Of a stretch of DNA of 64,000 nucleotides, positions 5,775-54,997 are shown piece by piece; the first letter of the stretch is position 1; every line of letters starts with the position of its first letter. The notes under the pieces are model-generated. The model was not told where the DNA came from. It was given only the letters and a program-made list of their open reading frames with translations, and made no database searches. The position numbers and the translations under genes are program-made. Origin of the DNA: Dolichospermum sp. DET69 (GTDB lineage: Bacteria; Cyanobacteriota; Cyanobacteriia; Cyanobacteriales; Nostocaceae); contig CP070233.1 of NCBI GenBank assembly GCA_017355425.1, forward strand, positions 3,947,501 through 4,011,500, given 5' to 3'.

Positions 5775-7448
5775 ATGAGCGATCGCCTTTTACAATTCTT
5801 ATTAATTGACCCAGATCCAATTTTCCGTTTAGGACTAAAGGTAACACTCGAAGCTATTCCTAATTTACAAGTAATAGCAGATGTTGCCACAGAGACTGCT
5901 GCTTTACAGGTTTTATCGGAAATAAATTCTCGGCAAATTAAATTAATCATCTTAGAATTAGATAATGAACAGCTAGAGTTACAATTCTGTAAACAACTAA
6001 AAGCTTTATATCCCCACATACCTGTATTACTTCTAAGTTCCAAACCTCAACCAGAATTGCTCATTGGTGCAAAAGCGATAGGGATAAATGGTTATTGTCC
6101 TAAAGGTATCTCAATTTCTCAATTAGTCCCCATAATTCAAGAAGTAGCTAATGGTGGTTATTATTGGTTTGTAGATCCAGTAATTATTAATTCTTCTTTA
6201 CCATTTGTTAAATTGCGAAGTAATTTACAAAATTCAGGAATTAACAATATTGATCAAGCTCTTTATCAAATCACAGAACAATTAAAATTACCGGGAAAAA
6301 CTCTATTAAATAAAGCAATTTTAGCAGGACAACGACGGGAACTTTTAGCGGCTCGCTGGGTTGTTAATCACTTATTAACAACCGAGGAAGAAAGACAAAA
6401 GTTACCAAAAAAAATACTTAGTAGTCAAGTAGTTTTCAAATCAGATTCACAACTATTGATCAATATACCACCTGTAGTGAGTTCTCAAAAACTGCAATCT
6501 GAATTGTTGACATTATGTTCAACTAAACTGCAATTTGCTTTAAATAATATTAGTAATACACCTTTAGAAATTGATATTCTTCGAGAAGATAAAAAAAGAG
6601 AGTTACTTTATATTATTCTCCAAAAATTTTCTCAGCAATTGGATGAAATTCATACCTTTAATTTTGATAAAAATCAACTATTTAATTTAACAGATAAGAT
6701 TTTAATGGATTTATGGCAATTTACTATTACAGAATTTTTTGGTAATTACTCCCAGATTAGTTTAGATAAACAAGAGATAAATATAGTTAAATTTTTATTA
6801 GATAAAACCACAGATTCGCAAACAGAAATAATCAAAAAAGTCCCTTTATTTTTTGAATTGTTATCTTATTTGCTACTATTCACAGATTTATGTATTGATA
6901 ATATCTCTTACCCTGCTGGTAGCACAGAAGCTCAATCTCAAGCATTAGTAATTTTAGAAAATTTATTTATTCACATCGCTAATACTGTAATTCAACCTTT
7001 ATTAAATTATTTAGCAGATGTAGAAACCATTAAACAAAATTTTTATGATCGGCAAATGATTTCCACTAGGGAAATTGAGAAATTTAGAAATAACTTATCT
7101 TGGAAATATCAATTATATCAATATATAACTGAAGCGCAAACAATTTTTGAAAGTCGTCATGAATTATTTATTTTTTCCCCTCGGGGAATTGCTAAAATAT
7201 CAATTTATTCTCCTCGTAATCAAGAATTAGCTCAACTTTCTGGTGTTCCTCTAGGGGTAACATTAATACTAGAATTTCGGGATGCTATTTCCCCACGCAT
7301 ACAATCGTTAGTAGGGTTTTTAGGAACTGGAATTGTTTTCGTGCTTACTCAAGTAATCGGTAAGGGTTTAGGTTTAGTGGGTAGAGGTATTTTACAAGGA
7401 ATTGGTAGCGTTTCTTTGACAGAAAAAGGACAACGGAAGCATAAGTGA
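5775..7448 (+). CDS. Receiver-like domain fused to DUF3685 (Ycf55-related)
   Basis: A 557-residue protein with a response-regulator-like N-terminus (residues 6-125) and a long C-terminal DUF3685 region, the family that includes plastid Ycf55. The receiver keeps the acidic pocket IDPDP (residues 11-15) and the lysine in YCPKG, but strand 3 reads LIILELDNE, placing Glu61 where the phosphorylated Asp normally sits. The C-terminus (about 505-545) is hydrophobic and glycine-rich, suggesting membrane association. Function is unknown; a constitutive or phosphorylation-independent receiver is inference. It follows furC closely and may be co-transcribed. ATG start overlaps a HIP1 site. Confidence 0.75.
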   Translation: MSDRLLQFLLIDPDPIFRLGLKVTLEAIPNLQVIADVATETAALQVLSEINSRQIKLIILELDNEQLELQFCKQLKALYPHIPVLLLSSKPQPELLIGAKAIGINGYCPKGISISQLVPIIQEVANGGYYWFVDPVIINSSLPFVKLRSNLQNSGINNIDQALYQITEQLKLPGKTLLNKAILAGQRRELLAARWVVNHLLTTEEERQKLPKKILSSQVVFKSDSQLLINIPPVVSSQKLQSELLTLCSTKLQFALNNISNTPLEIDILREDKKRELLYIILQKFSQQLDEIHTFNFDKNQLFNLTDKILMDLWQFTITEFFGNYSQISLDKQEINIVKFLLDKTTDSQTEIIKKVPLFFELLSYLLLFTDLCIDNISYPAGSTEAQSQALVILENLFIHIANTVIQPLLNYLADVETIKQNFYDRQMISTREIEKFRNNLSWKYQLYQYITEAQTIFESRHELFIFSPRGIAKISIYSPRNQELAQLSGVPLGVTLILEFRDAISPRIQSLVGFLGTGIVFVLTQVIGKGLGLVGRGILQGIGSVSLTEKGQRKHK

Positions 7449-52556: not shown

Positions 52557-52664
52557 CAGTATTTTTCTCCTGCAAAATTATTAATTATAAGGGAAATGCC
52601 GAAAACCCTTGAAGATGTAGCTGACTTAGGAAGCTACATCTGTGCTTTAGACAAGGGATAAAGG

Positions 52665-52823
52665 CTAGGTGCAGGATTTATCCTGCATTGACACCGGATC
52701 TGGCAGACTGTCTATCCAATCTTCTATTAGTCTTGTTACAGAATATTCTTTTTGTTCGGCTAATAACTTTAGTTTATGGGATCTGCGCGGTGTCGTTCTA
52801 ATTCTTATATATTCAGTCTTCAT
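52665..52823 (-). CDS. Small ribbon-helix-helix-like protein in the IS left end
   Basis: A 52-residue protein read divergently from tnpB, starting at ATG 52823: opens MKTEYIRIRTTPRRSHKLKL, then LLAEQKEYSVTRLIEDWIDS. A basic strand followed by two helices fits a ribbon-helix-helix DNA-binding fold. Small genes like this lie in the same place in other cyanobacterial tnpB elements, from memory. It shares the 62-bp divergent promoter region with tnpB and may repress it. Too short for routine gene calling. The last residues (SMQDKSCT) run into left-end sequence. Confidence 0.6.
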   Translation of the reverse strand: MKTEYIRIRTTPRRSHKLKLLAEQKEYSVTRLIEDWIDSLPDPVSMQDKSCT

Positions 52824-52885
52824 CTTGTCTCCTATCTGTTTCCTATCTATGTTATATTATAAACAGGTCGAAAGGAAACAAAGTA

Positions 52886-53815
52886 ATGATAGTCTTAGAG
52901 TCCAAAATTAAAGGTAAACAGCCTCAATATAACGCGATAGACGATGCAATTCGGACTACCCAATTCGTTCGGAATAAAGCAATTAGGTATTGGATGGATG
53001 CACCGCGTGAGCTAAAAATTGATAAGTTTGCTCTTAATAAATACTCTACTGAACTTCGGAAGGAATTTCCCTTTACTGCTGAGTTAAACTCAATGGCTGT
53101 ACAATCAGCCGCAGAAAGGGCTTGGTCTGCCATATCAAGGTTTTACGACAACTGTAAATCTAATAAATCTGGCAAAAAAGGATTCCCTCAATTTCAGAAA
53201 GATTGCCGTTCCGTTGAATATAAAACATCGGGATGGAAGCTACACAAAACCAAGCGGCGTATCACCTTTACCGACAAAAAAGGGATTGGTGAACTCAAAT
53301 TATTAGGTAAATGGGATATTCAATCCTACGAACTTAAAGACATTAAACGAGTGCGCTTAATCCGTCGTGCAGATGGATATTATGCTCAGTTTTGTATCGG
53401 CATTGATGTTGTAGATATTCAACCGAGAACGGGTGTGGACATAGGTTTAGACGTTGGTATTGAGTCATTTTACACTGACTCTAACGGGCATCACGAACCT
53501 AACCCTAAGTTTTTGAGAAAGGCTGAAAAATCAATTAAGCATTCTCAAAGACGGATTTACAAAAAGCGGAAAGGTTCTAGTGGTAGAAAAAAAGCTAGAA
53601 AACTTTACGCTAAAAAACACTTAAAAGTAAGTAGGCAACGTATAGAACACGCTAAGAGAATAGCGCGTTGCGTAGTCAAATCTAACGCAAGAGGTGCTAT
53701 AATAAATGTATTGATTTTGTTTACTGCTGATGAAAATAATCGAAAATGGCTTCGAGATAAAACCTTACTCAGTAAAAGGTTTTTCGGGAATATACAAGAT
53801 TGTAAATATTATTAA
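52886..53815 (+). pseudogene. tnpB: TnpB, N-terminal part (interrupted)
   Basis: Residues 1-268 are an ordinary IS1341-type TnpB N-terminal part: MIVLESKIKGKQPQYN start, WED-like QFCIGIDVVDIQPRT region and RuvC-I GVDIGLDVGIESFYTD with the first catalytic Asp. At ...RIARCVVKSNA (codon 53687-53689) the homology stops. The frame then runs for 41 unrelated residues into the inserted sequence before a stop at 53815. The expected next residues, LVAYEDLRV, begin at 54473 after the insert. TnpB is an RNA-guided nuclease that helps its element persist; this part alone lacks RuvC-II, the zinc ribbon and RuvC-III. Confidence 0.85.
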
Positions 53816-54470
53816 CAATAAGTTTTATCTTGGTAGAGCCAGCAATTTGTACACACGTTACAGCGTCCATCTCTCAGAATTAAGAAGAGGTGTAAAACAC
53901 CATAAAGATTCTGTTTTAAGGCGGGCTTGGTTAAAATATGGAGAGAATAATTTTATATTTGAGATATTTTTACGTGTCGAAGATAAAGCGTGTTTGGTGA
54001 AACTAGAAGAAAAATATTTACAAGAGTTAGAACCCTATAAGCCATCTATTGGCTACAATATGGATAAAAGCTCAATAGGTTTTACTACGGAAACAGCCTC
54101 GTTAGCTATCCAAAAACAGATATTAAATGGGAGAAAATGGACAGGCGAAAATAATGGAAATGCAAAATTAAATGAGCAGCAAGCATTAGAAATTAGAAAT
54201 CTTTTTTTAGAAAAAAGACTTAATACTATTGAGTTAGGAAGACTTTATAAAGTTGATAAGATGTCTATTAGTAATATACTCAGCGGGAAAACATGGGGTT
54301 TTGCTGAAGATTTAAGACCTAAACGTTTAAGCGGTGAAGAACAGTTATCTGTTGGGAAGTATAGCGTCGAATCAAAATTATCGGTTAAAGAGCTTTCTGA
54401 AAGATATGGTGTTTCTATCCCAAGTATTCGCAGAGCCATTCAAGCATACAAAAAGAAACTAAATACATGA
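53730..54470 (+). CDS. GIY-YIG homing endonuclease inserted in tnpB
   Basis: A 246-residue endonuclease close in pattern to I-TevI: SGIYKIVNIINNKFYLG (GIY at 20-22, YLG at 33-35), catalytic Arg43 in LYTRYSVH, His47, and the metal-binding Glu at 93 or 94 in KLEEKYLQEL. The DNA-binding part follows: ENNGNAKLNEQQALEIRNLF with a helix-turn-helix (TIELGRLYKVDKMSISNIL) and a second one near the end (SVKELSERYGVSIPSIRRAI). Its stop overlaps the ATG of the tnpB C-terminal part (ATGA). The gene fills nearly all of a 783-bp insert. It would cut an uninterrupted tnpB and spread by repair. Confidence 0.88.
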   Translation: MKIIENGFEIKPYSVKGFSGIYKIVNIINNKFYLGRASNLYTRYSVHLSELRRGVKHHKDSVLRRAWLKYGENNFIFEIFLRVEDKACLVKLEEKYLQELEPYKPSIGYNMDKSSIGFTTETASLAIQKQILNGRKWTGENNGNAKLNEQQALEIRNLFLEKRLNTIELGRLYKVDKMSISNILSGKTWGFAEDLRPKRLSGEEQLSVGKYSVESKLSVKELSERYGVSIPSIRRAIQAYKKKLNT

Positions 54471-54997
54471 ATTTAGTCGCCTACGAAGATTTAAGGGTTT
54501 CAAATATGGTAAAAAATCATTGTTTAGCGAAATCAATTAGTGACGCTAGTTGGTATTTGTTTAGGCAATGGATTGAATATTTTGCGGTTAAATTTGACAA
54601 AATTGCTATAGCTGTAGCACCACATTACACTTCTCAAAAATGTTCTAGTTGTGGCATAATTGTCAAAAAATCTTTATCAACTCGTACCCATAATTGTAGT
54701 TGTGGATGTGAGTTGCACAGAGATACAAACGCCGCAATTAACATTCTTGAGCTTGCAAAAAATAGGGGAGGGCATCCCCAAATTAACGCTACAGGAGTTG
54801 AAGCCACTACTCTACTTGGTGCAAACCTGGAAAAGCCAAGTTTTGACGATGAATGTAGAATCCCCTCGGCTTTAGCCAGGGGAGTGTCAACTCAGCTTAA
54901 ATTAGCGTTTCTGTGGTTTATTTTCGTCATCATCCTCAAAATCATCATCTTCAAAAAAATCCCAGTCATCATCATCCGTTGCTTGATTTTTGCCTGA
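54467..54997 (+). pseudogene. tnpB: TnpB, C-terminal part, possibly translated by coupling
   Basis: Starts with an ATG overlapping the endonuclease stop and goes straight into LVAYEDLRVSNMVKNHCLAK (RuvC-II with its Glu), continues with the zinc ribbon (CSSCG and CSCGC) and ends with RuvC-III (HRDTNAAINIL with its Asp). It is in the same phase as the N-terminal part. All catalytic residues of TnpB are thus kept across the two parts. After the right-end hairpin (DDECRIPSALARG) the frame runs on to 54997, antisense to the lapA-like gene, because no stop occurs at the element end. Whether the parts reassemble is unknown. Confidence 0.82.
54856..54890 (+). other. IS right end hairpin / presumed guide-RNA 3' scaffold
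   Basis: The CCCCTCGGC/GCC-AGGGG stem and AGTGTCAA end match those at 43897-43935 and (inverted) 63194-63227. In TnpB systems the guide segment is the flanking DNA just past this end, here from 54891. Confidence 0.65.

Follow-up and report, generated by a model that had tools for sequence, protein, structure and literature searches.

Phage cases of homing endonuclease genes (HEGs) in protein-coding genes are described in PMC2988022: mobE in nrdA of Aeromonas phage Aeh1, mobA in gene 60 of phage T4, and a seg-type gene at gene 43 of Aeromonas phage 25. The split NrdA of Aeh1 is reported there to be fully functional and the split gene-43 products to be active; the same source describes overlapping start and stop codons for phage HEGs and places I-TevI in the td intron. 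In the ShiLan insertion, the HEG lies out of phase with the phage DNA methylase gene that hosts it, starts 18 bp into the insert and stops in the last four bases, and is reported to have neither an intron nor an intein (PMC11855218). For ISDra2 TnpB, residue D191 is named in PMC8612924. Here, we analyzed a 64-kb window (the whole stretch of Dolichospermum sp. DET69 DNA presented) and found a GIY-YIG HEG in the tnpB gene of an insertion sequence (IS) of the IS200/IS605 type. The locus combines an exact insert with an empty site in a relative, an intact HEG frame with its catalytic residues, two open TnpB parts, and a largely kept omega-RNA end. We consider it likely that a phage-type, free-standing GIY-YIG HEG has inserted in this cyanobacterial tnpB and homes on empty tnpB copies. 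What is new is the host, a transposon RNA-guided nuclease gene in a bacterial chromosome, HEG-split genes being already known from phages.

To place the boundaries of the insert, we used two identical copies of the same IS element (L059 and L060) in the same-genus genome G101, both of which carry the empty site. With the insert set aside, the window element and these copies were 91.8-91.9% identical at the DNA level over 1.4-1.5 kb, and the alignment was ungapped across TCTAACG/ATTTAGTC, which makes the junction exact, with the C-terminal part of TnpB (TnpB-C) resuming at 54471. An initial annotation of this DNA had the tnpB reading stop and then resume at LVAYEDL after 783 bp, and the continuous alignment of the empty copies bears this out; the insert it placed at 53687..54472 is real, with ends one to two bases off the exact ones (Table 1). 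The search for uninterrupted tnpB genes in relatives that it had proposed turned up the joined site in both G101 copies. When ISDra2 TnpB (PDB 8bf8) was aligned through the nearest intact paralogue of the same genome, which is 86% identical over the N-terminal part (TnpB-N), the junction fell at residue 273, by hand count five residues before E278, which we take to be the RuvC-II residue. The insert lies five codons ahead of the RuvC-II glutamate of TnpB. Its G+C content of 32.7%, lower than the 38.9% of tnpB-N, fits a foreign origin. Since both tnpB halves and the HEG give strong family matches and a relative holds the empty site, we judge that the insert is not a chance arrangement.

Upon analysis of the inserted frame, we obtained matches above the cut-off for both Pfam GIY-YIG (33 bits, cut-off 22.6) and TIGR01453 (68.8 bits, cut-off 56.05), and PHROGs labels it a homing endonuclease. 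The PDB gave two significant matches to it, 1mk0 and 1ln0, both of them domains of I-TevI (intron-associated endonuclease 1). Residues G20-I21-Y22, Y33, G35, R43, E93, and N110 were invariant in five out of five aligned sequences, and Y22, Y33, G35, E93, and N110 in nine out of nine. An I-TevI-like gene with its catalytic residues kept had been claimed earlier, and the catalytic residues named then hold in these alignments. The C-terminal half contains helix-turn-helix-like stretches, mostly weak matches, and the nearest relatives found are on viral contigs (49% identity over 84 residues), the searches of genomes, phages, and plasmids having given none closer. The frame is best read as a free-standing GIY-YIG HEG inside tnpB.

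Table 1. Positions of the features of the interrupted element (window coordinates) and of the second insert (locus coordinates).
Feature	Position	Strand	Basis or remark
Whole IS200/IS605-type element, tnpB only	52589..54890	+	Ends set by three same-genus genomes with the IS-free site and by the two G101 copies
N part of tnpB, extending beyond RuvC-I	52886..53687	+	OrfB_IS605 Pfam 60 bits; guided_TnpB 130.8 bits
Insert of exactly 783 bp, with no target bases duplicated or lost	53688..54470	+	Alignment to L059/L060, which carry the empty site
Foreign 42-residue tail of TnpB-N, first codon spanning the junction, ending in a stop	53688..53815	+	
Extended -10 box TGCTATAAT	53695..53703	+	26 nt ahead of the HEG start codon
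GIY-YIG homing endonuclease gene, 246 amino acids, helix-turn-helix-like C-terminal part	53730..54470	+	
ATGA overlap of HEG stop (TGA) and TnpB-C start (ATG), both within the insert	54467..54470	+	
TnpB-C frame, 176 amino acids: RuvC-II (LVAYEDL), zinc finger, RuvC-III	54467..54997	+	Cas12f1-like_TNB 72.3 bits; guided_TnpB 103.7 bits
Right-end/putative omega-RNA region with terminal hairpin	54690..54890	+	13-sequence fold
Second GIY-YIG insert, clean 760 bp, in an open reading frame with a weak anti-repressor match	L024 4200-4959 (G000:C2)		Uninterrupted gene in G125

The insert leaves three open frames in a row, TnpB-N, HEG, and TnpB-C, and its only noncoding part is the 42-nt leader ahead of the HEG. 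This leader holds an extended -10 box that would serve as the HEG promoter. Matches to TGNTATAAT on both strands of the window numbered 5 against 5.56 expected, and the chance of such a box in the 42-nt leader is about 0.0015 (our own arithmetic, done post hoc), so that its presence there by chance appears unlikely. TnpB-N runs into the insert and ends at a stop at 53813-53815, and the ATG at 54467 reopens TnpB-C as M-N-LVAYEDL. At the ATGA overlap, ribosomes would finish the endonuclease and reinitiate on TnpB-C, and the three-gene row may still yield both enzymes.

Between them, the two open TnpB parts carry RuvC-I, RuvC-II, RuvC-III, and the zinc finger, and the intact paralogue matches ISDra2 TnpB in the PDB at E 1.2e-33. 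The ratio of nonsynonymous to synonymous rates (dN/dS) against L060 was 0.083 for the N part and 0.071 for the C part; in this analysis, we discarded the misaligned N-half rows, those that pair L058, L061, or L062 with any sequence outside this trio. Changes per branch, counted on a separate fresh alignment, came to 33 synonymous and 14 nonsynonymous on the window branch and to 28 and 9 on the L060 branch, with 10 changes assigned to neither. We see no clear excess of amino acid changes on the window branch in these counts, and most of the low dN/dS and of the branch changes may predate the insert. The fold of the putative omega-RNA, built from 13 sequences, has 44 pairs, 13 of them with compensatory changes; the window copy retains 43 and the other copies 42-44, which suggests that this end is largely kept in the window copy. 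The guide of the putative omega-RNA would be the flank starting CTCAGC. Separately, the right ends of L057 and L067 have a hairpin stem unlike the others and two predicted pairs broken. That the two TnpB parts assemble is possible but somewhat doubtful; an inactive TnpB in the window, with the IS depending on others, is more likely than their assembly.

We then compared the DNA around the junction among tnpB copies. The junction falls within the longest identical run shared with the G101 copies, 128 nt (-69 to +58), and when the 124 differences were scattered at random, such a run occurred at the junction in 0.014% of trials (p = 1.4e-4, assuming even scatter). Over these 128 positions, four other relatives show 13-21 differences from L060, a density about as elsewhere, so this is not a stretch conserved in its own right. 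As a footprint of homing, the tract is suggestive. The site has a perfect match in both G101 copies and no match at any of the 19 own-genome tnpB loci checked: 12 of the 19 (L002-L013) differ at 9-12 of 40 junction positions and the other 7 at 19-23, while L060 differs at 0 of 40 and matches 70 of 70. The 19 loci derive from 30 own-genome tnpB matches, 10 of which gave no locus and were left out. This pattern is consistent with vulnerable copies being absent from this genome and present in the relative.

A second GIY-YIG gene of this genome, on contig C2 (L024), is 42% identical to the first over residues 19-103 and also sits in a clean insert (Table 1). Its leader carries a variant box, TGCTACAAT, its start shares bases with the stop of the broken N frame, and at the other end its stop shares bases with a GTG from which the C frame is reopened; as read from these frames, the two inserts share one layout in unrelated genes of one genome. 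Of 23 loci scanned, 3 had box TGNTANAAT within 260 nt ahead of the GIY-YIG match, namely both loci of this genome and the viral locus L086, and hence it is not a general trait. Relatives of the HEG elsewhere comprise 121 phage records, all below 60% identity, 7 plasmid records, and 13 loci on viral contigs. Genome contigs gave no match to the single HEG protein and 10 loci with alignment A2. At E 1e-6, TIGR01453 gave 17 matches, spread over 16 of 386 cyanobacterial genomes, with 5 genomes above the curated cut-off. The same insert in other tnpB genes, which the initial annotation had thought worth seeking, did not turn up: only 1 of 40 GIY-YIG loci from three collections (L069-L098 and L122-L131) had tnpB beside it, the window's own, L085, in a tblastn search with 18 own-genome TnpB frames at E 1e-4 that covered flanks of at most 1.5-3 kb and that a very distant TnpB could escape. 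All TnpB matches in plasmids were single pieces among the 60 of 633 records listed.

Several readings compete with insertion of a free-standing HEG. An unusual or degenerate self-splicing intron, its core overlapping the endonuclease gene, would suit an insert whose length is divisible by three, and TIGR01453 takes its name from endonucleases of group I introns. However, only 42 nt are noncoding, the 141 nt around the 5′ junction show no folding beyond that of shuffled sequences (z -0.04), and the C-terminal part of the insert is protein-like, with helix-turn-helix matches. No Rfam family matched at the gathering score anywhere in the window, and when the limit was relaxed to E 5, the insert region gave four weak matches to unrelated families, with no intron model among them. 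The search method works, since the same library detects a group II intron in another own-genome tnpB as well as a group I intron at a different GIY-YIG locus; it can also miss, as none was found in L077 or L079, where an intron is plausible too. A group I intron with an HEG was rejected, with no ribozyme core detected by Rfam and 42 nt of noncoding DNA, which agrees with the earlier statement that some 40 noncoding bp leave no room for such a core, and we rate even a degenerate intron as very improbable. The site at a conserved motif would suit an intein, but the tnpB frame is closed within the insert by the stop ending at 53815, the HEG lies in another frame, and the family matches include no intein domain. 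Lacking a continuous frame and splicing domains, an intein is excluded by the reading frames, as had been claimed, and we give it practically no weight. An assembly artefact is hardly credible: the genome is in two contigs at 99.99% completeness, the interrupted site is kept exactly in the relative, and the HEG occurs once in the genome, where its sole other match is the 42%-identical gene on C2. The original proposal of a free-standing GIY-YIG HEG in tnpB at RuvC-II is thereby upheld by the empty site, the lack of a detected intron, the closed frame, and the residues kept.

It is also conceivable that a phage HEG entered tnpB by illegitimate break repair, does not home on tnpB, and knocked the gene out. 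Such a dead end would agree with the single insert of this kind seen, the altered TnpB tail, and an identical tract that is only suggestive. It sits less well with the perfectly clean insert and the stop/start overlap at its end, the location at a conserved catalytic motif, the intact HEG frame, the low dN/dS of both TnpB halves against L060, and the lack of a clear excess of amino acid changes on the window branch (most of which may predate the insert), and we regard it as unlikely. Several further results weigh against a homing HEG. At the 3′ end of TnpB-C, a one-base length difference swaps the last 14 residues for 55 others, and the window copy has lost one of the 44 omega-RNA pairs. The altered frame extends beyond the IS end, and the altered tail lies outside the part aligned to solved TnpBs. 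The same tail varies in other copies, L065 stopping ahead of it and L057 and L067 being longer; L065 may itself be decaying, since its gene is flagged with an internal stop. No Shine-Dalgarno sequence was seen by eye ahead of the HEG start or the TnpB-C start, so reinitiation on TnpB-C is something that we infer, and a simple promoter scan gave no excess of sigma-70-type sites (5 found against 7.9 expected). No second genome had the same insert: when the 386 cyanobacterial genomes were searched with the HEG, 2 matched at E 1e-10, its own and one distant relative. Finally, the 128-nt run holds 8.4% of the alignment columns, so a random point would fall in it at that rate, and the run at the junction of the second HEG covers 39% of columns and is not unusual, which is why the identical tract remains suggestive only.

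With these points weighed, we favor the homing HEG. A phage-type HEG with its own short promoter-like leader would have entered tnpB; its enzyme would recognize the DNA around RuvC-II in empty tnpB copies and break it there, and repair would copy the HEG in together with flanking DNA. The HEG's own copy would be protected, its site being interrupted. The sister genome G101 supplies the exact empty target, which makes homing directly testable. On this account, one selfish nuclease parasitizes the catalytic motif of another, and does so in a bacterial chromosome and not in a phage. The common layout in two unrelated genes suggests how free-standing homing endonucleases might soften the damage that they cause. 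A bolder proposal is a two-tier selfish system, in which the HEG spreads among tnpB copies, the insert keeps TnpB alive through its own promoter and the stop/start overlap, and the split TnpB works as a natural two-chain RNA-guided nuclease. Assembly of two polypeptides into an active enzyme is not common to every HEG-split gene, and we hold this proposal to be rather improbable. If true, the element would hold both a protein-guided and an RNA-guided drive, and if the halves assemble, they would offer a natural split-TnpB design useful for small inducible editors.

The element that hosts the insert measures 2302 bp with the HEG and 1519 bp without it. Its left end lies directly 3′ of TTAT, which also precedes the left end in both G101 copies, and GTGTCAA forms its right end. 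IS200/IS605 elements insert 3′ of a short motif, with no duplication, a trait that the window element shares. Both flanks were located in all eight same-genus genomes searched, with a spacing of 7-20 bp in five and of 136-249 bp in three, and the IS-free junctions themselves were read in three of the eight. As these spacings are too short for the element in all eight, the window copy is probably a recent arrival at its site. A 52-residue open reading frame lies within the element on the minus strand (52668-52823), upstream of and opposite to tnpB; it is ribbon-helix-helix-like by a weak match (E 0.043), and its stretch is mostly highly similar in the G101 copies.

Elsewhere in the genome, another tnpB is split by a group II intron (L023 4892-8274; G000:C1, about 3816.9-3820.3 kb) with a reverse transcriptase/maturase open reading frame and an Rfam Intron_gpII match at 7296-7373. 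Together with the HEG in the window, two tnpB genes here host different selfish elements. At L077 and L079 (in G310 and G261), GIY-YIG genes lie, by eye, between two parts of an open reading frame resembling the ribonucleotide-reductase small subunit, with about 225-260 nt ahead of the open frame and no Rfam intron at the gathering score.

In the open-licence literature, we found no report of an HEG inside tnpB among the matches listed. The earlier suggestion that the system may be undescribed fits this result for an HEG in tnpB of a bacterial chromosome, within that literature and those matches, and does not hold for HEG-split protein genes as such, which PMC2988022 and PMC11855218 describe in phages. 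Like I-TevI (PDB 1mk0 and 1ln0), the window HEG has a GIY-YIG catalytic domain (E 3e-6 over residues 19-112); unlike I-TevI, it lies outside any detectable intron, and its C-terminal part has no alignment. The intact paralogue belongs to the same family as ISDra2 TnpB (PDB 8bf8, 8ex9, and 8exa; PMC8612924), whereas the chain in the window is in two pieces. As in IStrons such as CdISt1, an IS605-type element is joined with a second selfish element (PMC3984707, PMC4227781); in contrast to IStrons as outlined in PMC3984707, no ribozyme was found here and the HEG is inside tnpB. The window insert resembles ShiLan in having an out-of-phase HEG that fills its insert without an intron or intein, but the ShiLan enzyme, as PMC11855218 presents it, is HNH and its host frame stays open through the insert, while here the host frame is closed and then restarts. 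In layout, the window locus agrees with HEG-split genes of the Aeh1 mobE type, with a clean insert, both gene parts open, and no splicing element detected. As in the Aeh1, T4, and phage 25 cases set out in PMC2988022, the HEG interrupts a protein gene at a place critical to function; the hosts there are phage replication-type genes, with mobE and mobA being HNH, and here a GIY-YIG gene has split a transposon nuclease gene in a bacterial chromosome.
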